Shown: positions 26,032 through 43,672 of the stretch, piece by piece
Layout: each line of letters opens with the position of its first letter
Numbering within the stretch: position 1 is the stretch's first letter
DNA from: Tsuneonella troitsensis
GTDB taxonomy: Bacteria; Pseudomonadota; Alphaproteobacteria; Sphingomonadales; Sphingomonadaceae
Direction: 5' to 3'
NCBI RefSeq assembly: GCF_001441535.1
Contig: NZ_LMAU01000003.1
Coordinates: 124,001-188,000 of the forward strand
DNA: 64,000 nt
Notes under the pieces: generated by a model
Database searches by the model: none
Told to the model about the DNA's origin: nothing
The model's input: only the letters and a program-made list of their open reading frames with translations
Position numbers and translations under genes: made by a program

Positions 26032-26134
26032 CCTCGCCGGTCACCGCCTGGGCGGTACAGGATACGCTTGCGTCCGTTCTGTTCATACACTCAACGACCG
26101 CGCGCCGGCCGAGGATTCTTAGTCGGAAGGGTCC

Positions 26135-26183
26135 TTGACAATCACGTCCTCGCCATACATTCAGAACATACGGTAGCGGATGG
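26135..26183 (+). promoter_or_regulatory. Promoter and TetR-type operator of the ring-cleavage/dioxygenase operon
   Basis: TTGACA (26135-26140) with a possible -10 around 26156-26163 (TACATT at 15 bp or CATTCA at 17 bp), followed immediately by CATACGGTAGCGGATGG (26167-26183), the same 17-mer as before iorAB with one change. An operator placed just downstream of the -10 would block initiation. Confidence 0.55.
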
Positions 26184-26215
26184 TTTTCGCCCGTCAAACA
26201 GCAAGGGAGCGGACT

Positions 26216-27058: not shown

Positions 27059-27327
27059 GCGTCCATGGCATGGAGATGGCGCTCTACGACATCACGACCA
27101 AGGGCGCCGTCAGGAAACGCTTTGTGGCCGAGCCCCGGGAAGTCCTGAGCGGGTATGGCCTGGAGCCTCCCGAGCAGGCGATGCTGGAGGGCCTCGACGT
27201 TCCGTCCCTGCTCGATGCCGGAGTGAGCCCCATGCTCACCATCGGCTTGTGGATGTGCGTCCGCGGGCCCCAGGCCCTGCCCGAGTATCTGAAGGCGGTC
27301 TCCGATAGCCGCGGAGGGAAGGTCTGA
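27055..27327 (+). CDS. LigA/CarBa-type small (alpha) subunit of extradiol dioxygenase
   Basis: 90 residues from GTG 27055 (GTGA overlap with the hydrolase; ATG 27070 is an alternative). All-helical LigA-like sequence (AVRKRFVAEPREVLSGYGLE; LLDAGVSPMLTIGLWMCVRG). In the LigAB and CarBaBb enzymes this subunit caps the active site formed in the beta subunit; its 90-residue length matches CarBa. Overlaps the beta-subunit gene by one base. Confidence 0.88.
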   Translation: MSVHGMEMALYDITTKGAVRKRFVAEPREVLSGYGLEPPEQAMLEGLDVPSLLDAGVSPMLTIGLWMCVRGPQALPEYLKAVSDSRGGKV

Positions 27328-28145
27328 TGGCCACGATTGTCGGCGGATTCCTGATGTCCCACGACCCGCTGGTGTTCATCAATCCGCGCAAGGTCGATCC
27401 TTCTCCTGTCTTGGCGGCCTACGAGGCCATCGGCGAGCGGGTGCGGGAACTCGAGGCCACCGCCGCGGTGGTGATCGGGGCTGACCACTACATCCTCTTC
27501 GGGCCGACCTGCCTGCCGCAGATGGCGATCGGGATCGGAGACGTGCAAGGTCCAGTCGATCCCCTGCCTGGCGTCGACCGCGGTCCTATCCGCGGTAACC
27601 CGGACCTTGCCCGCCACATCATGGATGTCGGACACGGCGAGGGGTTCGACTGGGCGGCCGCGAAGTCGATGTCCGTCGACCACTCGATCGGTGTGCCGGT
27701 GCGGCGCTGCCTGCCGGCCGACGGCTCGGTGGCGACGATTCCGGTGTATCTGGCGGCCGGCGTCGAGCCGCTGATCCGCCCCCGCCGGGCCTTCGACCTT
27801 GGCGGTTCGATCCGGCGCGCGGTCGAAACTTTCTCCGGGTCCGACCGCGTGGTCGTGATCGGGTCCGGCGGTCTTAGCCATTGGGTCGGCCTGCCCCAGA
27901 TGGGGCGCATCAACAAGGCCTTCGACAGGATGATCCTCGACGCCGTCGAGCGCGGCGACCCCGAGGCCCTGATCGGCCTGTCCGACGACCATGTGCTGGA
28001 AAACGGCGGCAACGGCGCGATGGAGATCCGCCAACTGCTCTGCGCCATGGGCGCTGTCGGAGGGGCGGGCAGGGTGATCGCCTACGAGCCGTGGCCCGGA
28101 GGGGTGACCGGCCTGGGGTTCGCCGAACTGGGCATGGCCGCATGA
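27327..28145 (+). CDS. LigB/CarBb-type catalytic (beta) subunit of extradiol ring-cleavage dioxygenase
   Basis: 272 residues, class III (LigB-fold) Fe(II) extradiol dioxygenase. Candidate iron ligands: His12 (LMSHDPLVF), His54 (GADHYILFG) and Glu233 (AMEIRQ); His185 in SGGLSHWVGLP corresponds to the catalytic base. Together with the separate alpha subunit and the C-C hydrolase this resembles CarBaBb-CarC, which cleaves 2'-aminobiphenyl-2,3-diol, but the true catecholic substrate is unknown. Overlaps its neighbours on both sides. Confidence 0.9.
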   Translation: MATIVGGFLMSHDPLVFINPRKVDPSPVLAAYEAIGERVRELEATAAVVIGADHYILFGPTCLPQMAIGIGDVQGPVDPLPGVDRGPIRGNPDLARHIMDVGHGEGFDWAAAKSMSVDHSIGVPVRRCLPADGSVATIPVYLAAGVEPLIRPRRAFDLGGSIRRAVETFSGSDRVVVIGSGGLSHWVGLPQMGRINKAFDRMILDAVERGDPEALIGLSDDHVLENGGNGAMEIRQLLCAMGAVGGAGRVIAYEPWPGGVTGLGFAELGMAA

Positions 28146-28177
28146 TGACGGCGCGTTTGGTGCCAGACGGGGATGCA

Positions 28178-28558
28178 ATGTCGAACGTGGTCCCGCTTGG
28201 CGACGCCTCTGAGATCGCCGAGGGCGAGATGAAGGCGTTCGCGGTGGAGGGCGCCGGCCGGATCGCCGTCTACCGCGTCGAGGGCGGCTGGTTCGCCACC
28301 GACGATCTCTGCTCCCATGCCGTCGCCTCCCTGACCGAGGGTTGGCTCGAGGGCCATACCGTCATCTGCCCCGCCCATTCGGGCGAGTTCGACGTGCGCT
28401 CGGGCAAGGCGCTGTGCTTTCCGGCCACGCGCCCGATCCGCACCTATCCGGTGTGGGTCGAGGACGGCCGGCTGATCGCGGACATTTCCGCTGCAAGGAC
28501 CGACCCCGCTGCTTCGGGCGCCGGCCGACAATCCGGTGAAGGACATCCCAATGGTTGA
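28178..28558 (+). CDS. Rieske-type [2Fe-2S] ferredoxin of the ring-hydroxylating dioxygenase
   Basis: 126 residues from ATG 28178 (GGGGAT RBS; MSNVVPLGDASEIAEGEMKA, the usual start of BphA3-like ferredoxins); an ATG at 28142 overlapping the LigB stop would add 12 residues. Rieske ligands: CSH (LCSHAVASLTEG) and CPAH (ICPAHSGEFD). Carries electrons from the reductase encoded downstream to the oxygenase. Overlaps the alpha-subunit start by 8 bp. The C-terminal tail beyond the Rieske fold is Ala/Ser/Gly-rich. Confidence 0.9.
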   Translation: MSNVVPLGDASEIAEGEMKAFAVEGAGRIAVYRVEGGWFATDDLCSHAVASLTEGWLEGHTVICPAHSGEFDVRSGKALCFPATRPIRTYPVWVEDGRLIADISAARTDPAASGAGRQSGEGHPNG

Positions 28559-29870
28559 CACCCTGCAACCGCCCGTCGCAGCTCCGGCGACCGACTTCGA
28601 CTTCCACCGTCTCGTCGACGTTGAAGCCGGCTGGATCGACAGGCGCATCTTCTGGGACGAGGGCATCTACCAGCTCGAACTGGAGCGGATATTCGCCCGC
28701 TGCTGGGCTTTCGTCGGCCACGAGTCGCAGTTCGCGGCGCCTGGGGATTTCGTCACCACCTATATCGGACAGGACGCCGTGATCGTCGCCAAGGACCGGC
28801 GGGGCGAGGTGAATGTCTTCCTGAATTCCTGCACTCACCGCGGCAACAGGGTCTGCTTTGCCGAGACCGGCAGCACGCGCCAGTTCACCTGCAATTTCCA
28901 CGGCTGGGCGTTCGGCCTCGACGGCGGGCTGATCAGCGCCCATGAAGAGCACCACTATTCCCGGTGCGCCACCTTCGACAAGTCGAAGCTCGGGCTGCAC
29001 CGGGCGCGCACCGCCACCTACAAGGGCCTGATCTTCGCGACCTTCGACCCGGAAGCCCCGTCGCTGGATGAGTACCTTGGAGACTATCGCTACTATCTCG
29101 ATGTCCTGCTGGACAACGATCCGGGCGGTACGGAGTTTCTCGACGGCAACGTCAAGTCCCGCCTGCGCTGCAACTGGAAATTCGCGGCCGAGAACTTTGT
29201 CGGTGACGCCTATCATGCCGGTTGGACCCACGCCTCGGCGGCGGCGGCGCTCTTCCAGCGCGACGTGAAGGTGAACCCGGCCCACTCCTATCAGGCCAAC
29301 ATCAATGGCCACGGCACGGAATTTGGTCTCGACCTGTTCGGCAACGCCATGGCGCTCGCCGAACCAGAGGTGGTCGAATACCTGAAGGAGAACGAAGCCC
29401 GGTTCGCCGAGCGGCTGGGCAAGCTGCGCTCGCGCATGGTGGGCGCCATGAGTTCGTCGAATGTCTTTCCGAACCTCGCCTACCTGACCGGCCTGAACAC
29501 ATGGCGCGTTTGGGTTCCGAAGGGACCGCACGAGATCGAACTGAACACGTGGGTGCTGGTGAACCGGGACATGCCCAAACGCCTCAAGGAGGCCTATCGC
29601 CGCGGCGTATCCCGCACCTTCTCGCCCACCGGCATGTTCGAGTCCGACGACGGAGAGAACTGGGAGCACTGCACCCATTCCAACGCGGGCGTCGTCACCC
29701 GTCGCCAGAAGCTCCACTACGGGCTTGGGCTGGACTCAAGGATGGAGCACGAGGAATTTCCCGGCGCCGTCTATCACGTGCAGCTGAACGACGCGAACCA
29801 ACGCGCCTTCTACCAGCGATGGGCCGACCTGATGTCCGCGTCCCGCTGGGCCGACGTCCCCAAGCGCTGA
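28551..29870 (+). CDS. Ring-hydroxylating dioxygenase, alpha (catalytic) subunit
   Basis: 439 residues from ATG 28551 (AAGGA RBS). Rieske domain: Cys94-x-His96 and Cys114-x2-His117 (SCTHRGN; CNFHGWAF). Mononuclear iron site: Asp219 bridging, His222 and His227 in ENFVGDAYHAGWTHASA, with Asp366 or Asp367 (FESDDGENWEH) as third ligand; the spacing matches naphthalene/biphenyl-type dioxygenases. Adds O2 to an aromatic ring to give a cis-dihydrodiol. It forms an operon with ferredoxin, beta subunit, dihydrodiol dehydrogenase and reductase, a complete three-component system. Confidence 0.95.
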   Translation: MVDTLQPPVAAPATDFDFHRLVDVEAGWIDRRIFWDEGIYQLELERIFARCWAFVGHESQFAAPGDFVTTYIGQDAVIVAKDRRGEVNVFLNSCTHRGNRVCFAETGSTRQFTCNFHGWAFGLDGGLISAHEEHHYSRCATFDKSKLGLHRARTATYKGLIFATFDPEAPSLDEYLGDYRYYLDVLLDNDPGGTEFLDGNVKSRLRCNWKFAAENFVGDAYHAGWTHASAAAALFQRDVKVNPAHSYQANINGHGTEFGLDLFGNAMALAEPEVVEYLKENEARFAERLGKLRSRMVGAMSSSNVFPNLAYLTGLNTWRVWVPKGPHEIELNTWVLVNRDMPKRLKEAYRRGVSRTFSPTGMFESDDGENWEHCTHSNAGVVTRRQKLHYGLGLDSRMEHEEFPGAVYHVQLNDANQRAFYQRWADLMSASRWADVPKR

Positions 29871-29881
29871 GGAGCCGCACA

Positions 29882-30439
29882 ATGTCAGTAAACGCCACTC
29901 TCGACCGGGAGCGCGAGCCGGCCCCGCGTCGCCGCGCCTCCCTGGACTTCGTCCATGAGGTTCAGCAGTTCCTCTATCGCGAAGCCCGCCTGCTGGACGA
30001 ACAGCGCTACGACGACTGGTTCGAGTTGATGACCGAGGACTTCACCTATTGGGTTCCGGTTCCCCAGTCGCGCTATCGCCGCGACAAGAAGCCGACCTAC
30101 GAACCTGGTCGCATGGCGCATTTTGACGATACGCTCACGGAGCTGAAGCTTCGGGCCTCACGTTGGAAGGAAAAGACCGCCTGGAGCGAAGACCCGCCCA
30201 CGCGCAACGTCCACTATGTGACCAACATCGAGATCGCCCCCGCTGAAGGGGCGCAGGACTGGCTGGTCCGCTCAGTCGCCATAAGCCTGCGCACTCGCAA
30301 CGAGGATGAGGAGAACTGGCTTGGCGGCCGGCGTGAGGACCTGATCCGCGAGACGCCCGATGGGCTCAAGCTGGTCCGCCGCTGGGTCTTCCTCACCCAG
30401 ACGGTGCTCTTGTCGAAAAACTTCAACACCTTCATCTGA
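29882..30439 (+). CDS. Ring-hydroxylating dioxygenase, beta (small) subunit
   Basis: 185 residues from ATG 29882 (GAGGAGCCGCACA spacer). SnoaL/NTF2-like beta subunit: HEVQQFLYREARLLDEQRYD, WFELMTEDFTYWVPVPQSRY, RNVHYVTNIEI and the C-terminal LVRRWVFLTQTVLLSKNFNT. Structural partner of the alpha subunit in an alpha3beta3 hexamer. Lies 11 bp after the alpha gene. Confidence 0.93.
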   Translation: MSVNATLDREREPAPRRRASLDFVHEVQQFLYREARLLDEQRYDDWFELMTEDFTYWVPVPQSRYRRDKKPTYEPGRMAHFDDTLTELKLRASRWKEKTAWSEDPPTRNVHYVTNIEIAPAEGAQDWLVRSVAISLRTRNEDEENWLGGRREDLIRETPDGLKLVRRWVFLTQTVLLSKNFNTFI

Positions 30440-30441
30440 CG

Positions 30442-31242
30442 ATGGCGCAACAGGGTTGGCTTGACGGTTATACCGCTGTCCTCACGGGCGCCGGCGGCGG
30501 CATCGGACGGGCGGTGGCCGAACGCTACCTGGCTGAGGGCGCGCAGGTGGTTGTCCTCGACCGCGACGAAGCCTCGGTGGCGGCCTTGGCCGAGGCCCAT
30601 CCGGGCCGCGCGTTCGGCGTCTTTGGCGACGTCCGGGATCCGCAGGCCCATGTCGACGCCGTGGCGTTGGCGCAGGAGCGGTTCGGCCGCGTCGACGTGC
30701 TGGTGGCCAACGCCGGCGTGTTCGACTTCTGGCGGCCGCTTCCCCGCTACAGCCTCGAACGGCTGGAGCGAAGCTTTGACGAGATCTTCGCCATCAACGT
30801 GAAGGGCCATCTCCTGGCGGTGAAAGCTGCCGAGACCGCCCTGCGGCAGTCCAGGGGCGCGGTGATCCTGACAACGTCGGTGGCAGGGCTGAACGCGGCG
30901 GGCGGCGGGGTGCTATACACCGCTTCCAAGCATGCCGTGGTGGGCCTTGTGCGCCAGCTCGCGCTTGAACTGTCGCCCGATATCCGCGTCAACGGCGTGG
31001 CGCCGGGCGCGACCCTGACGGGGCTGTCCGGCGTCGATGCGCTGGATGAGGGCCGCCGCAGCATTCAGGAGGTCGGGGATATCTCGGCGGCGGTGTCCAA
31101 GATACTGCCGCTGGGGTTTGCCCAGCAGCCCCAGGACCATGCCGGCGCCTACGTGTTGCTGGCATCGCGTGAGAACGCCAGGGCGATCACGGGGCAGATC
31201 ATCGTCAGCGACGGTGGCCAGGAAATCCGGGCGATCGGATGA
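30442..31242 (+). CDS. Short-chain dehydrogenase, probable cis-dihydrodiol dehydrogenase
   Basis: 266 residues, SDR fold. NAD-binding TGAGGGIG near the N-terminus, NAG motif (LVANAGVFDFW), the catalytic Ser in LTTSVAGLNA and YTASK. BphB/NahB-like context: it follows the dioxygenase subunits by 2 bp and is coupled to the ferredoxin reductase by ATGA. It would oxidise the cis-dihydrodiol to a catechol for the LigAB-type dioxygenase. Confidence 0.9.
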   Translation: MAQQGWLDGYTAVLTGAGGGIGRAVAERYLAEGAQVVVLDRDEASVAALAEAHPGRAFGVFGDVRDPQAHVDAVALAQERFGRVDVLVANAGVFDFWRPLPRYSLERLERSFDEIFAINVKGHLLAVKAAETALRQSRGAVILTTSVAGLNAAGGGVLYTASKHAVVGLVRQLALELSPDIRVNGVAPGATLTGLSGVDALDEGRRSIQEVGDISAAVSKILPLGFAQQPQDHAGAYVLLASRENARAITGQIIVSDGGQEIRAIG

Positions 31243-32444
31243 TCGGGACCATCGCGATCATTGGCGCCAACGTCGCCGGTGTGACGACGGCGGCGGAGCT
31301 TCGTCGGCTGGGGTTCGAGGGAAGGATCCTGCTCTTCGACTCCGAGGCCGCCCCCCTCTACGAACGGCCCCCATTGTCCAAAGCGCTGCTGATCGGCGAG
31401 ATGGACCAGGCCTGCGAGGCGCCGCTGCTTACGGCCGCTGAACTGGCGGATCTGCGCCTGGATCTCGAATTCGCAACGCTGGTGCGTGGGATCGCGCCCG
31501 GGCGCGTTGAATTGTCGTCGGGCCGCCAGGTCGACGCCGATGTCATGGTTATCGCCACCGGGGGGCGCGCGCGGCGCTCGCCGGCGTTCGAACATCGCGA
31601 CGGCGTTCACGTGCTGCGCACCGAGGCCGACGCCCTGGCCCTGCGGGCCGCCCTGTCGCCCGGCGCCGAGGTGGTCGTCATGGGCGCGGGCGTGGTCGGC
31701 TGTGAAGTCGCTTCGAGCGCAATCAGGCGAGGCTGCGCCACGACCCTTGTCGACGTGGCGGCCGCGCCCATGCTGCGCTGCCTGGGCGCGGAAGCAGCGC
31801 ATGTCATGGCGACGGTCTGCCAGCAGGCAGGCGCGGACATGCGCTTCGGCGCCGGCATTGCGGCGGTCGAAGGGCGATCACACGTCCAGGGGCTGCTGCT
31901 GGAAGACGGCGAGAGGCTGCCGTGCGACGTTCTGGTGGTGGGCATCGGCATGGCCGCCAACGATGAGCTGGCGCGCGGGGCGGGGGCCGAGGTCGACGAC
32001 GGCATCCTGGTCGACGACGCCTGTCGCACGTCCCTGCCGGGGGTGTTCGCCGTCGGTGACGTAGCAAGGCGGCGCGCGCCGGGTGGCGGGCCCGCCCGCC
32101 GGGTCGAGACGATCATGAACGCCCAGGTCCAGGCCCGCGAGACGGCGGCGGCCCTCCTCGGCCTTGCTCCGCCCGCGCCTCAGCCGCAGTGGTTCTGGTC
32201 CGATCAGTTCGGGTTGAACATCCAGGCGGTCGGTGAGGTCGCGCGGAGCGATCGAGTCGGCTGGGCGCGGCCGTTCGATGGCCGCGAGGGCGTGCTGCTG
32301 CACTTCAGCGACGATCGGCTGTGCGGGGCGGTAAGCTTCAACCGCGGCCGCGAAATGGCGCGCCTCCGCCGCCTGCTGGCGCGAGGAGACGACCAGACGC
32401 CAGAGGCCCTGCTCGGGGACCCTGACCTGGCGGGGGCGGCGTGA
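31239..32444 (+). CDS. FAD-dependent ferredoxin reductase (BphA4-like)
   Basis: 401 residues. Two dinucleotide folds: FAD site at the N-terminus (IAIIGANVAGVTTAAELRRL) and NADH site in the middle (VVVMGAGVVGCEVASSAIRR), the FAD segment GVFAVGDVARRRAPGG, then the BphA4-type C-terminal domain (WFWSDQFGLNIQAVGE). Transfers electrons from NADH to the Rieske ferredoxin. Overlaps both neighbours by 4 bp. Confidence 0.93.
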   Translation: MIGTIAIIGANVAGVTTAAELRRLGFEGRILLFDSEAAPLYERPPLSKALLIGEMDQACEAPLLTAAELADLRLDLEFATLVRGIAPGRVELSSGRQVDADVMVIATGGRARRSPAFEHRDGVHVLRTEADALALRAALSPGAEVVVMGAGVVGCEVASSAIRRGCATTLVDVAAAPMLRCLGAEAAHVMATVCQQAGADMRFGAGIAAVEGRSHVQGLLLEDGERLPCDVLVVGIGMAANDELARGAGAEVDDGILVDDACRTSLPGVFAVGDVARRRAPGGGPARRVETIMNAQVQARETAAALLGLAPPAPQPQWFWSDQFGLNIQAVGEVARSDRVGWARPFDGREGVLLHFSDDRLCGAVSFNRGREMARLRRLLARGDDQTPEALLGDPDLAGAA

Positions 32445-33424
32445 GCGCGATACCCCAACGCATGCAGGCGTGGATACTGCCCCAGTGGGGCGCGCCGTCC
32501 GACCTCCGGTTCGAGTCCGTGTCGGTTCCCGAGCTCTCGGCAGGCGAGGTGCTTGTCGAGGTGCGGGCGGCGGGACTCAACTTCGCTGATGGGCTGATGA
32601 TCGCCGGCAAGTACCAGGTGAAGCCGCCCTTGCCCTTCATCCTCGGAGCCGAGTTGTCCGGGGTGGTGGCCGTTGCGCCGCCCGACTCGAAGTTCCGGCC
32701 TGGCGACAGGGTGGCGGCCCAGGTCTGGACCGGCGCCTATGCACAGTACTGCGCGGTGGAAGAGCGCCGCCTCATCCGCCTGCCCCCGAACCTTAGCTTC
32801 GCGCAAGGCGCGGCGTTGCCCGTGTCCTATACGACCGCCCACGTCGCCCTGTTCCGGGATGGGGGCATCGCGCTGGGCAAGAGAGTGCTCGTCCACGCCG
32901 CCGCAGGCGGCATCGGGGTGGCCGCCACCCAGCTCGCGAAGGCGGCGGGCGCCTGGGTGATCGCCACCGCCAGCACATCACAAAAGCTCGCGGTTGCCGA
33001 GGCAAACGGGGCCGACGTCATGGTGAACTACCGCGAGCCGGACTGGACCGGGATGGTCCGGGCGGCGGCGCCTCGGGGGGTCGACATGGTGGTCGATCCG
33101 GTCGGCGGCGACATTACGCTGCAGAGCCTTCACCACCTGGCCTGGCGCGGCCGGTTGCTGTTGGTCGGCTTCGCATCGGGCGCACCGGCGCAGATACCGG
33201 CGAACCGGTTGCTGGTGAAGGCCGCCGCCGCGGTCGGCGTCTATTGGAACTTTGAAAACGACGGGCCTCTGATAGAGCGCATCCAGGCCGAGCTGGCCGA
33301 GCGCGCCGCAGCGGGTGAGATACGGCCCCTGGTTGGCGCCCGCTTCCCGCTCGAAGATTATCGCCAGGCCCTGCAAGAACTTGGCGAGGGCCGCACCGTG
33401 GGCAAGGTCGTGCTCGACCTCTAG
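32441..33424 (+). CDS. NADPH:quinone reductase-like zinc-independent MDR oxidoreductase
   Basis: 327 residues from GTG 32441 (GTGA overlap; ATG 32462 possible). Medium-chain reductase of the quinone-oxidoreductase type: AAGLNFADGLMIAGKYQVKP, PFILGAELSGVVA, HAAAGGIGVAATQLAKAAGA, and C-terminal PLEDYRQALQELGEGRTVGK. No structural or catalytic zinc cysteines. It could reduce an enone or quinone by-product of the pathway. Last gene of the rightward operon. Confidence 0.88.
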   Translation: MSAIPQRMQAWILPQWGAPSDLRFESVSVPELSAGEVLVEVRAAGLNFADGLMIAGKYQVKPPLPFILGAELSGVVAVAPPDSKFRPGDRVAAQVWTGAYAQYCAVEERRLIRLPPNLSFAQGAALPVSYTTAHVALFRDGGIALGKRVLVHAAAGGIGVAATQLAKAAGAWVIATASTSQKLAVAEANGADVMVNYREPDWTGMVRAAAPRGVDMVVDPVGGDITLQSLHHLAWRGRLLLVGFASGAPAQIPANRLLVKAAAAVGVYWNFENDGPLIERIQAELAERAAAGEIRPLVGARFPLEDYRQALQELGEGRTVGKVVLDL

Positions 33425-36158: not shown

Positions 36159-36671
36159 GTGGTGGCGAACTTGACTGGCTTGATCGGTGAGCGGGAATCC
36201 GCGCTAGGCCAAGGGCTGGCCGGGCTGAAGGTCGCTGTGGTCGCCGGAACCCAGTCGGGCAACGCGCTGATGGTGGCGGAGCTGGTGGCCAAGCGGTTGT
36301 GCGGCGTTGCGGGAGCGCGCGTGGAGCTCCTTCCCGAAGGGTGCGAAATCGACCGGGCGCTGTCCGAGGCGGATGTCCTCGTCGCGTGTGTGGCGAGCCA
36401 CGGGGAGGGCGACCTGCCGGACGAGTTCCTCGTCGCCTATTGCGGGCTCGAGGCGCGGGCGCCCGACCTGTCACACCTGCGGTACGGCCTGATCGGGCTC
36501 GGGGACCGCACCTATTCTACCTTCTGCGGCGGCGCCTGGAAGTTCGATCGGCTGCTGCAACGGTTGTGTGCTCGCCGGGCCGGTGAGGTGTGCGAGATCG
36601 ACGCGTCGTCGCAGCCGTTCCCCGACGAGGAGGCGCTGCTCTGGCTAAGCGGCTGGCTGGAAGAGGTTTGA
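36159..36671 (+). CDS. Flavodoxin / MioC-like FMN protein
   Basis: 170 residues from GTG 36159 (GTG 36162 also possible; no strong RBS). Flavodoxin fold: FMN phosphate loop VVAGTQSGNALMVAELVA, an ASHGEGDLPD loop and the signature GLIGLGDRTYSTFCGGAWKF seen in FMN domains of diflavin reductases and MioC. Presumed one- or two-electron carrier. It is the first gene of a rightward set containing an NADP reductase and a PaaA-like di-iron oxygenase, so it may be their electron shuttle (inference). Confidence 0.85.
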   Translation: MVANLTGLIGERESALGQGLAGLKVAVVAGTQSGNALMVAELVAKRLCGVAGARVELLPEGCEIDRALSEADVLVACVASHGEGDLPDEFLVAYCGLEARAPDLSHLRYGLIGLGDRTYSTFCGGAWKFDRLLQRLCARRAGEVCEIDASSQPFPDEEALLWLSGWLEEV

Positions 36672-36728
36672 GTGGAGCGCCGCCAGTCTACCATACGCAT
36701 AAGAATATAATGCCAAGGGAGGTTGATG

Positions 36729-38573
36729 ATGGAAGCCCAAACACTGCCGTTGGCGGACGCGCCCGACCCGTCGCGTCCCGCCAACATGGCCGACATGATA
36801 AATTCGCTGATCCGCGAGCGGGCCGGGATGCTCGCCTTCCGGAGCAGGACTCCCGAAGGATGGCGTGACGTCACCTGGGCGGAAATGGCCACCTCCGTGC
36901 GGGACACCGCAGCCGGCGCGCTCGCGTTCGGACTGGCTCCCGGCGACGCCGTCTGCATCCTGGCGCAAACCCGGCCGGAATGGCTGGAAGCCGACCTCGG
37001 GGCGCTCGCCTGCGGCCTGGTCAGCGCTGGCATATATCCGACCGAGCCGGCGGCTAAGGTGGCCTACGTGCTCAACGACTGCGGCGCGCGCGTGGTGTTC
37101 GTCGATTCCGCCGAGCAGGTGGCCAAGTTGAAGGCGGTGCGGGCGGAGTGTCCGCGGGTGGAAGCGGTCGTGGTGATCGACGACGACGCTGCGCCCGCCA
37201 ACGATAGGTGGTTCATCAAGCTTTCCGAATGGCGACGCGAGGGGTGCGCGCTGCTTGACGCCCGGCCCGACGCCGTCGACGAGGCGGGCCGCTCGGCGGG
37301 CCGGTCAACGCCGGCCATTCTGATCTACACGTCCGGAACCACGGGCCCCCCCAAGGGCGCGATCGTCACCCACGGCAATATTCTCTACCAGTTGGAGCAC
37401 GCGCCGGGCGGCCTGGGCCTGCAGGCCGGGTGGAACCGCCCCTGCTTCCTGCCGCTGTGCCACGTTGCCGAGCGCATGTTCACCTACATGGCCATGGCCA
37501 GCGGCATGGTGTCGTGGTTTGTCGATGGCCCGAACCAGTTGATGGCCTCGATCGGCGCGATGCGCCCGCATTTCATCCTGGCGGTGCCGCGCGTCTACGA
37601 AAAGCTCTACGGGCAAGCCCAGGAGTGGCTGAACAGTTTGCCGGCCGAGCGGCGCGAGCAGGTAGATGCCGCCGTGTTGCGGGCGTTGGAAGCCGTCCAA
37701 AGATCCGCCGAAGGCCGGCTCTCGTCCGAAGAGGCGGCGGTCTGGCGCTGCGACCAAAGGACCGTCCTGGCCGAGCTCCGCGCCGCCATGGGCCTGGACC
37801 GCGTGGCCATGCTGATGTCGGGCGGCGCGCGGTTCCCCGTGGCGCTCGGCGAATGGCTGCACGCCATCGGCGCCCGCGTTGACGACATCTATGGCATGAC
37901 CGAGTGCGGCACGATCGCCTTCAACCAGGACTTCAGGACCACGCCGGGCCTGGTCGGTCGACCGTTCCCCCACGGGGAGGTGATGCTGGCGCCGGACGGC
38001 GAGATCCTCGTGCGCGGGCCTCATGTGTTCGCCGGCTATCTGAACCTGCCGGACAAGACGGCCGAGGCGTTTCGCTACGGCTGGTTCCGCACCGGCGACG
38101 TCGGACGCTTCGACGACGAGGGACGCCTCATCCTCCTCGACCGCATCAAGGACATCATCATCAGTTCGAGCGGCAAGAACATCACGCCATCGGAAGTCGA
38201 GGGAGCCTTGAAGGCCTCGCCCGTGGTCGCCGATGCGGTGGCCGTGGGGGACGGCCGCAAGTACGTGGCGGCCCTGATCATGATCGACCCCGCCGTGGCG
38301 GGGCAGGCGCTGGCCGAACGGGGCGAGCACTACGAGACCTTCGCCGAACTCGCGCAGGCGCAAAGCACGCGTGACTTGGTGGCCGACGCTGTCGCGGAAG
38401 CCAACCGGAAGCTTTCGCGGGCCGAAGGCGTGAAGACCTTCAGGATCATCCCACGTCAGTTCGGCCCGGCCGACGAGGCGATGACTCCGACCCTGAAACT
38501 GAAGCGCCGCGTTCTGATCGATTCCTACGCCGATCTCGTGGCGCAGATGTATTCGCCCGACGGCCAGGCGTAG
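36729..38573 (+). CDS. Long-chain-type acyl-CoA ligase (3 of 3)
   Basis: 614 residues from ATG 36729, six bases after GGAGG; ATG 36726 and TTG 36723 are closer to the RBS. FadD15/ACSL-like ANL enzyme: ILIYTSGTTGPPKGAIVTHG, DDIYGMTECGTIAFNQ, RTGDVGRFDDEGRLILLDRI, KDIIISSSGKNITPSEVE and C-terminal TLKLKRRVLIDSY. It belongs to a different ANL subgroup from the two ligases at 17.6 and 24.3 kb, implying a bulkier or different acid. It sits between the flavodoxin and epoxide hydrolase genes and would supply the CoA thioester for the PaaA-like enzyme. Confidence 0.92.
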   Translation: MEAQTLPLADAPDPSRPANMADMINSLIRERAGMLAFRSRTPEGWRDVTWAEMATSVRDTAAGALAFGLAPGDAVCILAQTRPEWLEADLGALACGLVSAGIYPTEPAAKVAYVLNDCGARVVFVDSAEQVAKLKAVRAECPRVEAVVVIDDDAAPANDRWFIKLSEWRREGCALLDARPDAVDEAGRSAGRSTPAILIYTSGTTGPPKGAIVTHGNILYQLEHAPGGLGLQAGWNRPCFLPLCHVAERMFTYMAMASGMVSWFVDGPNQLMASIGAMRPHFILAVPRVYEKLYGQAQEWLNSLPAERREQVDAAVLRALEAVQRSAEGRLSSEEAAVWRCDQRTVLAELRAAMGLDRVAMLMSGGARFPVALGEWLHAIGARVDDIYGMTECGTIAFNQDFRTTPGLVGRPFPHGEVMLAPDGEILVRGPHVFAGYLNLPDKTAEAFRYGWFRTGDVGRFDDEGRLILLDRIKDIIISSSGKNITPSEVEGALKASPVVADAVAVGDGRKYVAALIMIDPAVAGQALAERGEHYETFAELAQAQSTRDLVADAVAEANRKLSRAEGVKTFRIIPRQFGPADEAMTPTLKLKRRVLIDSYADLVAQMYSPDGQA

Positions 38574-38588
38574 CGGAGGCCGCGCTCC

Positions 38589-39770
38589 ATGACCTTGTCG
38601 CTCGATCGGCTCAAGCCGTTCTCCCTTGACGCCCCCGAGGCGGCCATGGCGGACCTCCGGCGCCGGCTGGCCGCCTACAGGCCGCCCCCTGAGCCGGCCG
38701 GGGCGGGCTGGCGTTATGGCGTCGACGGCCAATACCTGAAGGCGCTCATCGACTACTGGCGCGAAAGTTTCGACTGGCGCGCGGCCGAACGGCGCCTGAA
38801 CGAGCTGCCCCACTACCGGGCCCGGCTGGACGCGGAGGAGGACGGCCAGGTCGACGTGCACCTGATCGTGCAGCGGGCGGCGCGCCCGGACGCGCCTGTC
38901 GTGCTGATGACTCCGGGGTGGCCGTCGAGCCTCATAGAATATCACGATCTCATCGCGCGGCTGACCGCTCCGGAGCGGTACGGGGCCGATCCTCGCAGCG
39001 CCGTCACGGTCGTCGCCGCCGAGCTCCCGGGCTTTGGGCTGTCGCAGCCGCCCCGAAGCCCGATGGCGGCCCGGCGGATGGCCGAGCTCTGGCGCCAGCT
39101 GATGGTCGATGTGCTGCAGGTCCCGGCATTCGTGGTCCATGGCGGCGACTGGGGCGCGGTGGTGAGTTCGTGGCTGGCGTTCGACCATCCCGAAGCGGTG
39201 CGCGGCCTCCACCTGAGCATGCTGGGGCTGCGGCCGCCACTGGGCCGCTCGGAGCGACCGCTAGACGAAGATGAGCTGGCGTGGGTCGCCGAAGCCAAGC
39301 GCCGGTTGGACCAGGACGGAGGCTATCGCGAGCAACAGGCGACGAAGCCCACCACCCTCGGCGTTGGCCTTTCGGACTCGCCGGCCGCCCTGGTCGCCTG
39401 GCTGGTTGAGAAATACCATGGATGGTCGGGCGCGGGACCGGACCAGCCGCCCCCCTTCGATCGCGACGCGGTGCTGACCGCCGCCACCGTCTACTGGATC
39501 TTCGGATCCCTGCCCGCGGCCAACTGGATCTATTGGGCCGATCGCCATGTGGCCGGCATCGGCCTCGCGGCCGGCGAGCGGGTGCTGACGCCGACCGGGT
39601 TCGCCATGTTCGGCGGCGGGTTCTTCCCGGTTCCGCCGCGCAGTTGGGCCGAGCGGGCCTACGACGTCGTGGCGTGGGACGTTCACGAGCGCGGCGGGCA
39701 TTTCCCCGCCTGGCTGACGCCGGAGCCGGTGGCCCGCAGCCTGCTGGGCTTCGTGGACGCCCTGGCGTGA
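38589..39770 (+). CDS. Epoxide hydrolase with EHN domain
   Basis: 393 residues. N-terminal epoxide-hydrolase domain (MADLRRRLAAYRPPPEPAGA; WRESFDWRAAERRLNELPHY) followed by the alpha/beta-hydrolase core: MTPGWPSSLIEYHDL, nucleophile Asp187 in HGGDWGAVVSSWL and the base His371 in ERGGHFPAWLTPE. Hydrolyses epoxides to diols via an ester intermediate. Starts 15 bp after the ligase and is coupled by GTGA to the reductase gene. Its presence beside a PaaA-like putative epoxidase is the main hint about module chemistry. Confidence 0.92.
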   Translation: MTLSLDRLKPFSLDAPEAAMADLRRRLAAYRPPPEPAGAGWRYGVDGQYLKALIDYWRESFDWRAAERRLNELPHYRARLDAEEDGQVDVHLIVQRAARPDAPVVLMTPGWPSSLIEYHDLIARLTAPERYGADPRSAVTVVAAELPGFGLSQPPRSPMAARRMAELWRQLMVDVLQVPAFVVHGGDWGAVVSSWLAFDHPEAVRGLHLSMLGLRPPLGRSERPLDEDELAWVAEAKRRLDQDGGYREQQATKPTTLGVGLSDSPAALVAWLVEKYHGWSGAGPDQPPPFDRDAVLTAATVYWIFGSLPAANWIYWADRHVAGIGLAAGERVLTPTGFAMFGGGFFPVPPRSWAERAYDVVAWDVHERGGHFPAWLTPEPVARSLLGFVDALA

Positions 39771-40966
39771 GCGGCGCCGCGCCGAGGGTGGCGATTGTCG
39801 GAGCCGGTCCCGCCGGGCTGTTCACGCTCTGCGCCCTTCTGCGGGAGGCGCCGGGCGCAAGCGTGGACGTCTTCGAGCGGCTGCCCACGCCGTTCGGGCT
39901 GGTCCGCAGCGGAGTGGCCCCCGACCACCAGGGCGTGAAGGCCGTCGTCCGTCAGTTCGAGCGAGCCTTCGCGACCGACCGGGTCCGCCTTGTCGCCGAC
40001 TGCGAGGTCGGCGGCGACATTCCGCTATCACTGCTGGCCGACGCCTACGACATGGTGTTCCTGGCTACCGGCGCGCCGCACGCGCGACGGCTCGGCGTTG
40101 CGGGTGAAGATCTGCCCGGCGTGTACTCCGCCATCAGCTTCATGGGATGGCTGAACGGCCATCCGGACCATGCCAGTCTGCAGCCGCGGATCGGGGAACG
40201 GGTGGTGATCGTCGGGGGCGGCAATGTGGCCCTGGATGTGGCGCGGGTGCTGGCCAAGACTCCGAGGGAGATGGAGTCCTCAGACCTTTGCGCCCACGCG
40301 CGACATCTTTGCGGCCGCGCCAGGTCGATCACCATCGTCGCGCGCGGCGGCCCCGAGGCGACGCGGTTCAGCCCCACTGAACTGAAGGCGCTTTCACGGC
40401 TTGAGGCGGCTGCGTTCCAGGTGGAGCTGCCGTCCGGCGCGGATCGATCGGCGCCGGTGGTTGCGGCCCTTGCGGCTCTGGAGACCACTCCGCCCGCCGG
40501 GGCGACGCGGATATGCTTCCGCTTCGGCCTGACCGCCGGTGAAGCCGTCGGTGAAGGATGCCTGGAGCAGGTCCGTTTCCAGCGTGCGGACGGGTCGGTC
40601 GAAGCGCTCGACGCTGACATGCTGATCTCCGCGATCGGCCAACAAGCCGCATTGGCGGGATCGGAGGCGGTCCATGCCGTGGGCTGGGCCTCGGGCGAAC
40701 GGGGCGACATCCCCGCGAGCAGGGCGCAGGCGCTGGGCGTGGTGCGGCAGGCGCTCGAAACGATGCGGCCCGTGCCTCGGCAGGCGGCGCGCGCACGGCT
40801 TGACGAGGTGATCTCGTCGTCCGGCGCCGGATACCTCGACTGGGCGGCCTGGAAGCGCATCGACCAGGCGGAGATATCGTCCGCGGCGCCGCCTCGCCCG
40901 AGGGAAAAGCTTGTCAGCTGGGCCGCGTTGCGAGCGACGGCGCGTTTACATGAGACAAATACGTGA
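39767..40966 (+). CDS. FprA/adrenodoxin-reductase-like NADP(H) reductase
   Basis: 399 residues from GTG 39767 (GTGA overlap with the epoxide hydrolase). FAD site VAIVGAGPAGLFTLCALLRE, LPTPFGLVRSGVAPDHQGVK typical of adrenodoxin reductase/FprA, NADP site VVIVGGGNVALDVARVLAKT and the C-terminal GYLDWAAWKRID. Transfers electrons from NADPH to ferredoxins or flavodoxins. Likely partner of the flavodoxin at 36159 and donor for the PaaA-like oxygenase (inference). Confidence 0.93.
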   Translation: MSGAAPRVAIVGAGPAGLFTLCALLREAPGASVDVFERLPTPFGLVRSGVAPDHQGVKAVVRQFERAFATDRVRLVADCEVGGDIPLSLLADAYDMVFLATGAPHARRLGVAGEDLPGVYSAISFMGWLNGHPDHASLQPRIGERVVIVGGGNVALDVARVLAKTPREMESSDLCAHARHLCGRARSITIVARGGPEATRFSPTELKALSRLEAAAFQVELPSGADRSAPVVAALAALETTPPAGATRICFRFGLTAGEAVGEGCLEQVRFQRADGSVEALDADMLISAIGQQAALAGSEAVHAVGWASGERGDIPASRAQALGVVRQALETMRPVPRQAARARLDEVISSSGAGYLDWAAWKRIDQAEISSAAPPRPREKLVSWAALRATARLHETNT

Positions 40967-40992
40967 TACCATGTAAGAAACTTGTCTTATAT
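40946..40992. promoter_or_regulatory. Nested inverted repeats before the PaaA-like gene
   Basis: TTACATG (40946-40952) and CATGTAA (40970-40976) form one dyad, AGACAA (40953-40958) and TTGTCT (40982-40987) a second, interleaved one. TGTCTTATAT (40983-40992) is the reverse complement of the ATATAAGACA element before the flavodoxin gene. It overlaps the reductase 3' end, GGAG for the next ATG following at 40993. Candidate PaaX-type operator. Confidence 0.5.
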
Positions 40993-41003
40993 GGAGTTTG
41001 ATA

Positions 41004-41825
41004 ATGAGGATGTATGAGAAGGGCGACGACCTGCCGGCCGAGTACCGCGCCGCGCTGCTTCACCTCCTGACCTTCCAGGCGGACTCCGAGTACGCCGGCG
41101 CGCAGCGGGTGGGTGAGAATATCCAGTACGCCCCCAGGCCGGAGGAGGCTTACCGGCTGGCGAAGAAGACGATGGAAGAGTACGGCCACGCCTTCTACCT
41201 CTGGACCCTGTTGGAGGACCTCGGGGTCGACGTGAAATCCCGCATGGAGGAGCTTCGCGACAACCCGGAAAATCCCGACCCGGCAAAGGTCAACATCATC
41301 AACGGCTTCCGCCGGCCTTACTGGCGAGAGCAGTTCCAGTGCTGGGAAGACGTCGCCATGATGTCGTGCGTAGCCACGCCCGGCGCGGTGATCTTTCTGG
41401 GTCAGTACGCCAAATGCTCATACCTGCCCTGGGCCCGCGTTTCGGAACGCATTGCCCGGGAAGAAGTGGGCCACATGGGGTTCGGCGTCTGGGCGGTGAA
41501 GCGGATCATCGAATTCGGCGGCGAGCCTGCCCGTGAAAAGCTCCAGCGGCGGGTGCCGAAGTTCCTGGCCATGGGCATGGGCATGTACGGAAGGCCGTCC
41601 GCTCCGGGCTCGGTCCAGTCACGGTACTTCGACAAGTATTACGAGATGGGCCTGAAGATCATGAAGCCGGAGGAGTGCCAGGCGCAGTACCTCGAACTCG
41701 CGCGCGAGCGGCTGAAGGACGTCGGCCTCGAGTACGTCGAGGACGTCGTTCCCGACTACGACCAGAGGATGGGCTACGCCATGGACGACGCCGAACTCGA
41801 GCTTCGGGTGGCCGGGGCCGCCTAA
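41004..41825 (+). CDS. Stand-alone PaaA-like di-iron oxygenase
   Basis: 273 residues from ATG 41004 (GGAG seven bases upstream); a TTG at 40998 would add two residues. Ferritin-like phenylacetate-catabolism family (PaaA/PaaC, PF05138-type). Candidate di-iron ligands: Glu29 (QADSEYAG), Glu59-x2-His62 (MEEYGHAF), Glu115 (CWEDVAMM), Glu154-x2-His157 (REEVGHMG). PaaA epoxidises phenylacetyl-CoA but requires PaaC, PaaB and the PaaE reductase; none of these is in the window. The protein is shorter than typical PaaA and keeps ligands that PaaC usually lacks. Likely an acyl-CoA or aryl-CoA epoxidase/hydroxylase. Its stop overlaps the convergent PaaX-like gene. Confidence 0.85.
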   Translation: MRMYEKGDDLPAEYRAALLHLLTFQADSEYAGAQRVGENIQYAPRPEEAYRLAKKTMEEYGHAFYLWTLLEDLGVDVKSRMEELRDNPENPDPAKVNIINGFRRPYWREQFQCWEDVAMMSCVATPGAVIFLGQYAKCSYLPWARVSERIAREEVGHMGFGVWAVKRIIEFGGEPAREKLQRRVPKFLAMGMGMYGRPSAPGSVQSRYFDKYYEMGLKIMKPEECQAQYLELARERLKDVGLEYVEDVVPDYDQRMGYAMDDAELELRVAGAA

Positions 41826-42769
41826 GCGGTCGGCCATTCGCGCGGCGTAAGCCCCCCGAAGCGGTCATAGAGCTCCGCCGATGCGCCGCGGATCGGCCCA
41901 TCGGCGGTGCGGACCACATCCGCCAGATAGGCCTCGGAGGGGCTCAGCACGGCTTCGTACACGTTGCGGCATAGCGAGAAGGCTGCTTCGCCAGCCCAAA
42001 CGTTCGGGAGGTGGTCGCGGGGCAGGCGCGGGTCGCGAAGGGCGATGCGGCGGTACTCCATCATCAGCAGAGACCGGATCATGTAGGCCGCCTCGGGATC
42101 CAGCGAGCGGCTGCGCTCCAGGTGTGACCAGACGGGCCGAAACAGGCCCAGAAAGTCGCCGTAGCTCTGCTCCAGGGCAGCGATGTTCCAGGCGTCGGCA
42201 ACGATGGTGCGCATGAGGTCCGGCCTGGCTGGCGAGGTCGCGGCGGCTTGCAGGATCTGGATGCGGCCGTGAAGGCCGGCATCCTCGAACAGCGCCTCAA
42301 GTGTTGCGATGTCCTCGGCCGCGCTGATGAAAACGTGGGGCGCCACCTGTCCCACGCCGCTCCACAGCAGGTTCCGACGAAGATTCGCATACGCCTTTGT
42401 GCTCAGCCCGGCGGCGCCGGTGAGCAGCAGCCACCACACGCCGTTCGCCTTGCGAACCGGTTCACCATAGACCCTCGGATAGTAGGCGATGACGTTGCGC
42501 ACGTGCTCGTCGGTGACGGAGTAGTAGCTCAGCTTTCCCACCCGCGTCGGATGTAGCCAGCCGTCATTTACCAGGCGAAGGGCGGTGGTGCGGGAGAGGT
42601 ATTCGGAGATGCCGAACGGCTGGGCCATCTTCACCAGGCTTCCCAACCAGGCAGTGCCCCCATGGGGCACCAGCATGTCGCCGTATATCGTGGCAATCAG
42701 GTTCTTTGGATTGACCCGAATGGATCCCACGAGCTTCTCGACGACGTAGCTCGTTGTAGTCCCGGCCAT
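41822..42769 (-). CDS. PaaX-like transcriptional repressor
   Basis: 315 residues. N-terminal PaaX winged HTH (NPKNLIATIYGDMLVPHGGT; WLGSLVKMAQPFGISEYLSR; RLVNDGWLHPTRVGKLSYYS), a central ferredoxin-like PaaX domain (GVWWLLLTG; YANLRRNLLWSGVGQVAPHV) and a C-terminal domain with RSLLMMEYRRIALRDPRLPR and W-AGEAAFSLCRNVY. PaaX senses phenylacetyl-CoA in E. coli. Here it is convergent with the PaaA-like gene and probably controls the 36-42 kb operon, responding to a CoA thioester (inference). Confidence 0.92.
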   Translation of the reverse strand: MAGTTTSYVVEKLVGSIRVNPKNLIATIYGDMLVPHGGTAWLGSLVKMAQPFGISEYLSRTTALRLVNDGWLHPTRVGKLSYYSVTDEHVRNVIAYYPRVYGEPVRKANGVWWLLLTGAAGLSTKAYANLRRNLLWSGVGQVAPHVFISAAEDIATLEALFEDAGLHGRIQILQAAATSPARPDLMRTIVADAWNIAALEQSYGDFLGLFRPVWSHLERSRSLDPEAAYMIRSLLMMEYRRIALRDPRLPRDHLPNVWAGEAAFSLCRNVYEAVLSPSEAYLADVVRTADGPIRGASAELYDRFGGLTPREWPTA

Positions 42770-42849: not shown

Positions 42850-43672
42850 GGTGTTGACAAGTTAAGTCGGCCTGGTCGGAAGGGCCGCTTCCCTACCCCT
42901 GGATCAGGCGGCGACGGTCGCGGCTTCCCACGCCCTGTCCGCTTGGGCGCGCAGGATCCGGAGACTTGGTCGGGAGATCAGGTGGGGTTGGATATTGAAC
43001 GTGTTGTAGACGGCGGAGTGGCTGGCCAGGAACCTCTGAGCTGAGCCCTGCGATTTGAATTTCTGCTGCTTTCGCTCTCGTCGCCGGATGACCAGGTGGG
43101 AGTTTTCAACCCGGTTGTTCTCGCGCATCCCGCCTGGTCGATGACGGCTGGTGAGGCCGAGGATCTTGGCCGCAGCCCGGTACGACGCCAGCTTGTCGGT
43201 GGTGATGGTTTCCGGATGGATGCCCTGATTGCGCAGCAGTTTCCGGAGCAGATTCAGCGCCGCTTCCTTGTTGCGACGCTTCTGGACCAGGACGTCCAGT
43301 ACCTCGCCCTCGTCGTCAACCGCGCGCCAGAGATACATCCGCTTGCCGCCGATTCTGACCACCATCTCGTCCAGATGCCAGCGGCCGGTCGGCGGCCCAC
43401 GGCGCCGGCGCAGGTTGGCTGCGATCAACGGGCCGAACTTGTTAACCCAGCAGCGCACCGCCTCGCGGCTGACCTCCACGCCCCGTTGCGCCAGCAATTC
43501 CTCGACGTCTCGGATGCTCAGCGTGAACCGGAAGTACAGCCACACGGCGTGCCGGATCACGTCCGGAGGGAACCGGTGCCGTTTGAATGAGATCAGCCGC
43601 ATGGTCTCTCCCCGGTTGGCCGCACCGTAGGGGCCCGAACCGGAGATAAGTTAGCGTTAGCCTGCCAGCACC
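42850..43672 (-). mobile_element. IS6-family insertion sequence, right copy
   Basis: About 823 bp with terminal inverted repeats: GGTGTTGACAAGTTAA (42850-42865) and, read inward from the right end, GGTGCTGGCAGGCTAA, matching at 12 of 16. Same orientation as the element at 14758-15575, so the pair forms direct repeats around the catabolic genes. No target duplication seen (42842-42849 versus 43673-43680). Ends are estimated. Confidence 0.82.
42904..43602 (-). CDS. IS6-family DDE transposase (right copy)
   Basis: 232 residues, ATG start (MRLISFKRHRFPPDVIRHAV). DDE residues Asp78 (WHLDEMVV), Asp136 (TTDKLASY) and Glu166 (ENNRVENSH); the frame is intact, so it may still be active. About 79 percent identical by hand to the left copy. 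Confidence 0.93.
   Translation of the reverse strand: MRLISFKRHRFPPDVIRHAVWLYFRFTLSIRDVEELLAQRGVEVSREAVRCWVNKFGPLIAANLRRRRGPPTGRWHLDEMVVRIGGKRMYLWRAVDDEGEVLDVLVQKRRNKEAALNLLRKLLRNQGIHPETITTDKLASYRAAAKILGLTSRHRPGGMRENNRVENSHLVIRRRERKQQKFKSQGSAQRFLASHSAVYNTFNIQPHLISRPSLRILRAQADRAWEAATVAA

Follow-up and report, generated by a model that had tools for sequence, protein, structure and literature searches.

A 64,000 nucleotide stretch of the Tsuneonella troitsensis genome (NCBI RefSeq assembly GCF_001441535.1, contig NZ_LMAU01000003.1, positions 124,001 to 188,000; referred to here as the window) carries a gene module built around a relative of the oxygenase protein PaaA. We propose, with a probability of about 0.52, that the locus is a horizontally spread oxygenase module for an aromatic coenzyme A (CoA) thioester, fed by a flavodoxin and regulated by a PaaX-type protein. 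Five + strand genes, FLD-LIG-EH-FPR-PAAA, occupy positions 36159-41825 with gaps of 54, 15, -4 and 37 bp. They encode a flavodoxin (FLD), a CoA ligase (LIG), an epoxide hydrolase (EH), an FprA-like reductase (FPR) and a PaaA-like protein (PAAA). A preliminary description of this DNA had reported five co-directional genes, closely spaced or overlapping, and we confirm their coordinates, spacing and families. It had missed the PaaX-type gene and a gene for a 140-residue protein, named U140 here. The genes are as follows.

36159-36671, + strand: FLD, a MioC/YqcA-type short flavodoxin and the proposed direct electron donor (Flavodoxin_1, PF00258, 69.5 bits)
36726-38573, + strand: LIG, an AMP-forming acyl- or aryl-CoA ligase, FadD11-like (AMP-binding, PF00501, 220 bits)
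38589-39770, + strand: EH, an EHN-type (microsomal-like) epoxide hydrolase with an abhydrolase domain (PF06441, 98.5 bits)
39767-40966, + strand: FPR, an adrenodoxin-reductase/FprA-like flavoprotein reductase in a shortened alpha-proteobacterial form (sequence comparison with the PDB)
41004-41825, + strand: PAAA, a PaaA-like, putative oxygenase subunit (PaaA_PaaC, PF05138, 73.5 bits)
41822-42769, - strand: PaaX-type transcriptional regulator, convergent to PAAA (PaaX, PaaX_M and PaaX_C all above the Pfam cut-offs)
15582-16004, - strand: U140, a helical protein of 140 residues and companion of PAAA (no Pfam or NCBIfam family; kept in 9 of 10 PAAA genomes)

The PF05138 score of PAAA exceeds the curated cut-off (28.5 bits) and makes it a member of the PaaA/PaaC superfamily. 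It misses both the PaaA equivalog (TIGR02156, 66.7 bits against a cut-off of 280) and BoxB (TIGR03225, 21 bits against 499.1). For FLD, the best NCBIfam model is PRK08105 (109 bits, under the cut-off of 160), and the PDB sequences matched include flavodoxin 2m6r (E 1e-22) and cindoxin 4oxx (E 2e-11). EH matches the PDB epoxide hydrolase 4i19 (E 9e-62), with alignment of the GGD and GGH motifs. Pfam and NCBIfam assign FPR as a pyridine-nucleotide oxidoreductase. Its nearest PDB sequences are adrenodoxin reductase (E 3e-48, residues 5-213) and FprA (E 4e-45, residues 8-273); this homology, together with glycine-rich FAD and NAD(P) motifs, places it in the adrenodoxin reductase/FprA family. The PaaX-type gene overlaps PAAA by 4 bp on the opposite strand, and its product scores below the TIGR02277 cut-off (220.6 versus 264.55 bits). 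The homology of PAAA to PaaA and BoxB, and the adjacent PaaX-type gene, support the earlier suggestion that the substrate is probably a CoA thioester.

The usual partners of PaaA were not found. The T. troitsensis genome comprises 2.9 Mb on 9 contigs and is listed as 100% complete. In genome-wide profile searches for PF05138 and for PaaB (PF06243), PAAA was the single PF05138 gene, so that no PaaC structural subunit was identified, and PaaB was not found; the PaaB control was positive in 3 of 14 genomes. We also ran tblastn with PaaB, PaaC, PaaD and PaaE queries from E. coli, Ruegeria and Roseateles. None was found at E ≤ 1e-4 in the window and 15 loci, and every subunit matched the control locus L067. 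For PaaD and PaaE, the negative result covers the window and related loci. The absence of PaaB, PaaC, PaaD and PaaE from the window, noted in the preliminary description, therefore holds and extends, for the PaaA/PaaC family and PaaB, to the whole genome. PAAA had also been called solitary. This is correct with regard to a second PaaA/PaaC-family gene or PaaB in its genome and incorrect with regard to U140, which travels along with it. A single PF05138 gene was likewise found in the genomes of L002, L003, L004 and L006. In Cupriavidus, PaaA-type genes of the classical kind are present as well, on contigs C20 and C109.

The PAAA gene is rare and patchy within the genomes searched, and this distribution matches the expectation of horizontal transfer. 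Six loci came from a pattern scan across 84,980 genomes. Three are in Phenylobacterium (88-91% identical) and three are beta-proteobacterial (74-79%), from Cupriavidus sp. UYMMa02A, one beta-proteobacterial metagenome-assembled genome (MAG) and one Rhodoferax MAG. A sample of 397 genomes from its own family yielded, besides T. troitsensis itself, two weak matches (26-30%) that are PaaA-type by alignment and tree; at E ≤ 1e-25, a phylum sample of 398 genomes returned the own genome alone. Three further samples were searched at E ≤ 1e-40. The family of Phenylobacterium J367 gave 3 of 299 genomes, all already known, the order of Cupriavidus gave 2 of 399, one of them new (G1264), and the class of G1264 gave 3 of 369, two of them new (G1559 and G1682). 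Thus, the pattern scan and sampled searches identify ten PAAA genomes, that of the window included. The most distant loci, L032, L051 and L052, encode PAAA proteins of 59-62% identity. Matches in plasmid records (55 in total) were all below 60% identity, and the pattern scan found no relatives in viral contigs.

The order FLD-LIG-EH-FPR-PAAA, with a convergent PaaX-type gene, is identical only in the window and the three Phenylobacterium loci (4 of 10). A PaaX-type gene is present in nine loci; in the tenth, L007, the contig breaks off within the hydrolase gene. An FprA-like gene is present in eight, L007 again being cut by the contig end. All ten genomes encode a flavodoxin. It lies within 15 kb of PAAA in seven, at a distance of 0.8-14 kb, and was the single match to FLD at E ≤ 1e-8 in each of the eight genomes queried, the own genome included. 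U140 is on another contig in G780, and in the window it lies 25 kb away from PAAA. The epoxide hydrolase occurs in 7 of 10 loci, counting the window and the truncated L007 copy, and the FadD-like ligase LIG in four (window and Phenylobacterium). A close enoyl-CoA hydratase is found in 7 of 10, and a 57% copy lies in the phenylacetate cluster of G1559. The most distant loci retain only FPR-PaaX and PAAA-U140, in a divergent arrangement. Hence, the minimal core is PAAA, U140, FPR and PaaX, plus FLD in the same genome; the epoxide hydrolase and ligase are lineage extras outside this core. Of the linkage whose conservation the preliminary description had named as a check, the flavodoxin and FprA-like parts stand, while the five-gene set, the hydrolase and the ligase are each missing from some of the ten loci.

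Between PAAA and the PaaX-type gene, the three divergent loci (L032:8883, L051:10449 and L052:7199) all have a near-palindrome, TGATACA(C/T)TAGTGT, which is possibly an operator for the PaaX-type protein. An inverted repeat of the type TGAGACA...TGTCT lies upstream of PAAA at window positions 40951-40989. Repeats of this type also occur upstream of the Phenylobacterium flavodoxin gene, exact in L004 and imperfect in L002 and L003.

In G1264, G1559 and G1682 the FLD homologue adjoins a gene for PaaA2, a second short PF05138 family, inside a phenylacetate cluster. The PaaA2 genes are as follows.

L054:9866-10663: PaaA2, short PF05138 protein, beside flavodoxin
L061:9151-9948: PaaA2, short PF05138 protein, beside flavodoxin
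L062:2304-3101: PaaA2, short PF05138 protein, beside flavodoxin

The three genomes share the arrangement PaaN-flavodoxin <-> PaaA2-crotonase(s). The full order in G1264 is PaaN, FLD, PaaA2, crotonase, thioesterase, PaaK, with PaaN (TIGR02288, 860 bits) and PaaK (TIGR02155, 738 bits) both over the cut-off. G1559 has the same set plus a 3-oxoadipyl-CoA thiolase (over the cut-off) and a PaaY-like protein (319.1 bits, cut-off 319.6). In G1682, PaaN-FLD-PaaA2-crotonases occupy a 6.9-kb contig, which ends without PaaK being found. We did not find PaaB, PaaC, PaaD or PaaE at these PaaA2 loci using tblastn. Each genome, of unreported completeness, encodes two PF05138 proteins and no more, PAAA and PaaA2. 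The two proteins are 22-25% identical and form separate clades. In all six PaaA2 rows compared, Lys stands in the place of the PaaA iron ligand Glu72, and the counterpart of Asp126 is Gly or Ser; PAAA is therefore the better-preserved epoxidase candidate in these genomes. Because the only PaaA-family genes there are PAAA and this degenerate paralogue, and because the phenylacetate cluster contains a flavodoxin, PAAA may be the phenylacetyl-CoA epoxidase of G1264, G1559 and G1682. We gave up the idea that PaaA2 might be a self-sufficient epoxidase, given the Lys at a ligand position and the fact that paaE is directly followed by a PaaA2 relative (48-49% identical to the L061 copy) in the three paaABCDE clusters of classical type inspected (L065, L066 and L067).

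Searches with U140 gave no Pfam family, at E ≤ 1e-5 for the window copy or E ≤ 0.01 for that of L032, and NCBIfam had no match either (E ≤ 1e-3). In an alignment of six copies, 28 columns are invariant. The AlphaFold model (mean pLDDT 82.5) has two long helices, 55-88 and 92-128. It had no Foldseek match at E ≤ 0.001; comparison with PDB sequences gave nothing convincing (best E 0.11) and plasmids gave no match at E ≤ 1e-3. The position of the gene, directly 3' of PAAA in L032, L051 and L052, suggests that U140 is a partner subunit of PAAA.

The reductases of L006, L032, L051 and L052 keep an RRGP and a GWxxRGxxG stretch. The Arg residues of these motifs bind the 2'-phosphate of NADPH. The window and Phenylobacterium enzymes are around 40-50 residues shorter, have RGGP, RSPP, RAPP or RAMP in place of RRGP, and have no GWxxRGxxG. 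The preliminary description had named NADPH as the electron source. With the Arg-Arg motif lost from the alpha-proteobacterial reductases, and kept by others, this is uncertain for the window enzyme.

From these observations we infer how the module might work. PAAA would be the oxygenase subunit, either as a homodimer or with U140 in the place of PaaB/PaaC. Electrons would pass from NAD(P)H to the adrenodoxin-reductase-like FPR, then to the flavodoxin and on to PAAA. FPR and FLD would replace PaaE, and the PaaB, PaaC and PaaE proteins of the classical epoxidase would not be used. The product, an epoxide or a hydroxylated ring, would be handed to lineage-specific enzymes. In alpha- and beta-proteobacteria these would be the epoxide hydrolase and enoyl-CoA hydratases; in G1264, G1559 and G1682 the product would enter PaaG/PaaN-type ring opening. 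The role of the epoxide hydrolase may be to finish a diol route in alpha- and beta-proteobacteria, or to act as a safety valve.

PMC4498308 lists E42, E72, H75, D126, E155 and H158 as the iron-binding residues of PaaA. It also describes a lysine bridge between K68 and E49, E72 and D126, with a suggested role in electron transfer, and a contribution of Phe108 to orienting the phenylacetyl ring. PAAA is 21% identical to E. coli PaaA. Its residues E29, E59, H62, E154 and H157 are kept in 10 of 10 PAAA proteins and correspond to five of the six iron-binding residues. K68 is likewise conserved, as K55. The preliminary description had assigned a full set of di-iron ligands, which is one too many; its ligand Glu115 aligns with PaaA Ala116, which is not a ligand. 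E49 is replaced by V36, and F108 by I99, in 10 of 10. In a tree that carries a long-branch warning, PAAA groups by itself (support 100/100), and the five PaaA rows included fall outside this clade.

Several points weigh against our proposal, and the sixth iron-binding residue is one of them. Asp126 of PaaA is T125 in 10 of 10 PAAA proteins, so the six-residue site is incomplete in every one. This match agrees in MAFFT, HMM-HMM alignment (hidden Markov models; probability 98.6) and phmmer, and has no gap between the W-x-D motif and the final His. An acidic residue between 117 and 147 is absent in 7 of 10, the three exceptions being at 136 or 137, and none of the carboxylates of PAAA within that helix replaces Asp126. 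A standard di-iron site is therefore not assured. We rejected D116 as a sixth ligand, since E. coli D126 falls on T125 in all three alignments. Two of the three lysine-bridge carboxylates are thus gone together in a group without PaaE at its loci, a correlation rather than a mechanism. The AlphaFold model of PAAA is poor (pLDDT 57); Foldseek returned nothing at E ≤ 0.001 and rmsd (root-mean-square deviation) values were near 20. PMC4498308 reports that PaaA alone is insoluble without PaaC. The linkage also has gaps. An FprA-like gene was not found on the entire 23.6-kb Cupriavidus contig (L005 and L033), and the Cupriavidus flavodoxin match is partial (residues 83-168 of 170), although it sits on the PAAA contig, C118, and not on the classical PaaA-type contigs. 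FLD and PAAA are ~50 kb apart in G1559 and on separate contigs in G1264 and G1682. In G781, a genome with a second, weak PF05138 match (31.2 bits), the search for U140 was negative.

A bolder version of our proposal is tentative, and we would sooner doubt it than rely on it. This is that the module represents a second aryl-CoA epoxidase assembly: PAAA would have a five-residue iron site and a dismantled lysine bridge, U140 would replace PaaB/PaaC, and an FprA-like reductase and flavodoxin would supply electrons. PaaABCDE would have been replaced outright in some phenylacetate degraders, and the change of donor and loss of bridge partners would have evolved together.

Other explanations must be set against the flavodoxin-fed aromatic oxygenase. 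It is unlikely, in our judgement, that the substrate of PAAA is instead a non-aromatic CoA ester, which it hydroxylates or desaturates, or that it acts on a side chain, with the epoxide hydrolase serving an unrelated substrate of the surrounding catabolic island. The Ile and Val found at the Phe108 and Glu49 positions would fit such a role, as would the ligases of the island, which are FadD-like or unassigned, none being named PaaK. Conversely, the nearby genes for aromatic catabolism in the window and Phenylobacterium, the phenylacetate cluster in G1264, G1559 and G1682, and the PaaX-type regulator argue for an aromatic substrate. We also consider it improbable that PAAA is a PaaC-like, regulatory or protective protein without oxygenase activity, and that the flavodoxin and reductase serve nearby oxygenases, for example the Rieske dioxygenase. 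Loss of the iron ligand Asp126 from all members is consistent with this idea. Furthermore, a Rieske dioxygenase cluster adjoins the module in alpha-proteobacteria, and a Pseudooceanicola plasmid has a similar flavodoxin beside an FAD oxidoreductase, near Rieske genes. However, the window Rieske cluster has its own HcaD-like reductase, and the part of the genes scanned beside PAAA in L005-L007, L032 and L051 included neither a Rieske oxygenase nor another ring oxygenase. Comparison with PaaC points both ways: three PaaC rows have lost three or four of the six residues, against one in PAAA, yet keep the Asp that PAAA lacks.

The presence of a PaaX-type regulator and a PaaG-like crotonase could also indicate an ordinary phenylacetyl-CoA epoxidase, with PaaB, PaaC and PaaE partners elsewhere or missed. 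We regard this as very improbable. The own genome, listed as 100% complete, has PAAA as its only PF05138 gene and gave no PaaB match, the tblastn searches of 16 sequences (window plus 15 loci) were negative where the control was matched, and PAAA stands in a clade apart from PaaA. With respect to PaaA, PaaC and PaaB in the own genome, this explanation is largely refuted.

Among known systems, PaaABCE resembles the module in its PaaA-like subunit, with five of the six iron-binding residues and the Lys68 equivalent in common, its PaaX-type regulator and its crotonases. The module differs in having no PaaB/PaaC, in the failure to find PaaD/PaaE at the locus, in the Asp126 to Thr and Glu49 to Val changes, and in having a flavodoxin, an FprA-like reductase and U140 instead. 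BoxAB is also a di-iron aryl-CoA epoxidase. It works without a PaaC-like partner and BoxA is a different reductase; we know of no flavodoxin in this system. BoxB is much longer than PAAA (the TIGR03225 profile has 471 positions) and keeps Asp211, given in PMC5489048 as the counterpart of PaaA Asp126. The P450cin system, as outlined in PMC9687028, has a similar path from NADPH through an FAD reductase and a flavodoxin-like FMN protein (cindoxin) to an oxygenase, which differs in being a cytochrome P450. The same paper states that cindoxin reductase resembles NADPH-dependent ferredoxin reductases and is replaceable by E. coli flavodoxin reductase, so it apparently lies outside the adrenodoxin reductase family. 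The 'phenylacetic acid catabolic protein' encoded after paaE in Ruegeria, Roseateles and Sagittula is PaaA2. Like PAAA, it is a short PF05138 protein outside PaaA/PaaC with a homologue beside a flavodoxin; unlike PAAA, it has lost the Glu72 ligand.

In the literature searched, which left most subscription journals outside its coverage, we found no description of a flavodoxin-linked PaaA-type oxygenase. PaaA together with PaaC serves as the genomic marker for the phenylacetate hybrid pathway. A 2026 survey (PMC13186573), which took the presence of the two as a criterion, reports both retained in all 825 proteomes counted. G1264 and G1559 have PaaK and PaaN and no PaaC-like gene, so this criterion would miss them. 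If real, a flavodoxin-fed, PaaC-free oxygenase would help to show the purpose of the PaaBC scaffold and lysine bridge, and whether a PaaA-type site needs six ligands. Confirmed at the bench, it would be a new way to build this oxygenase without the usual partners of PaaA.

The module is part of a catabolic island (14.8-43.6 kb of the window) with the following further features.

14813-15535, - strand: IS6/IS240-type transposase gene at the island border
16020-16796, - strand: enoyl-CoA hydratase (PaaF-like family), 25 kb from PAAA (PRK05862, 378 bits, cut-off 396)
16793-17770, - strand: crotonase, nearest family PaaG (1,2-epoxyphenylacetyl-CoA isomerase; TIGR02280, 190.2 bits, below the cut-off of 345.15)
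17580-19235, - strand: AMP-forming CoA ligase of the operon of U140 and the enoyl-CoA hydratase (ECH) (PF00501, 252 bits)
24301-33424, + strand: aromatic catabolic genes, by family matches
42904-43602, - strand: IS6/IS240-type transposase gene at the island border

The + strand block encodes a CoA ligase, an MhpC/HsaD-like hydrolase, a LigB-type extradiol dioxygenase, an HcaEF-like Rieske dioxygenase, an HcaB-like SDR, an HcaD-like reductase and an MDR. Further CoA ligases and a TonB-dependent receptor are also present, and the island resembles a 3-phenylpropionate/cinnamate set. Matches of the HcaE, HcaB, HcaD and HsaD types are nearly all under the curated cut-offs and are therefore family resemblances. 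Homologues of several genes of the block lie upstream of FLD in L002-L004 with their order kept; those of the SDR and HcaD-like reductase were not found there, nor was LigB in L004. The enoyl-CoA hydratase has copies in L002-L007 (63-78% identical), directly after PAAA in L005-L007. Copies of the 17580-19235 ligase are 71-72% identical in L003 and L004 and in two pieces (58% and 75%) in L002.

Phenylobacterium has part of the island set with the order kept, and U140-ECH-ECH2-ligase directly beyond PaaX. In the window, the U140-ECH operon is at the opposite end of the island from PaaX. Extra genes apart, the window island is a circular permutation relative to Phenylobacterium, and the break falls between PaaX and U140, at the transposase genes. 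The two transposases differ, being 77% identical over 677 aligned columns. A composite transposon was considered and is not shown, given this divergence and the lack of terminal repeats in a crude scan.

Some genes gave matches in several pieces: the PaaX-type gene at L005:7433-8373, the ligase and hydrolase genes at L002:5784-8747 (Phenylobacterium J367) and the ligase gene at L003:5731-7574. These point to frameshifts or assembly errors. In the beta-proteobacterial loci, all three of them, the module is accompanied by a linked gene for a DUF2889 protein (L006:3949-4518, L007:9344-9895 and L005:11920-12471), which was not found in L002-L004, L032, L051 or L052. The island also contains a full-length indolepyruvate ferredoxin oxidoreductase gene (19734-23207, - strand; 1157 residues, 1599 bits, over the cut-off). 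Enzymes of this kind could in principle convert arylpyruvates to arylacetyl-CoA. An IOR-alpha-like gene (614 bits against a cut-off of 651) is also present in the phenylacetate cluster of G1559.

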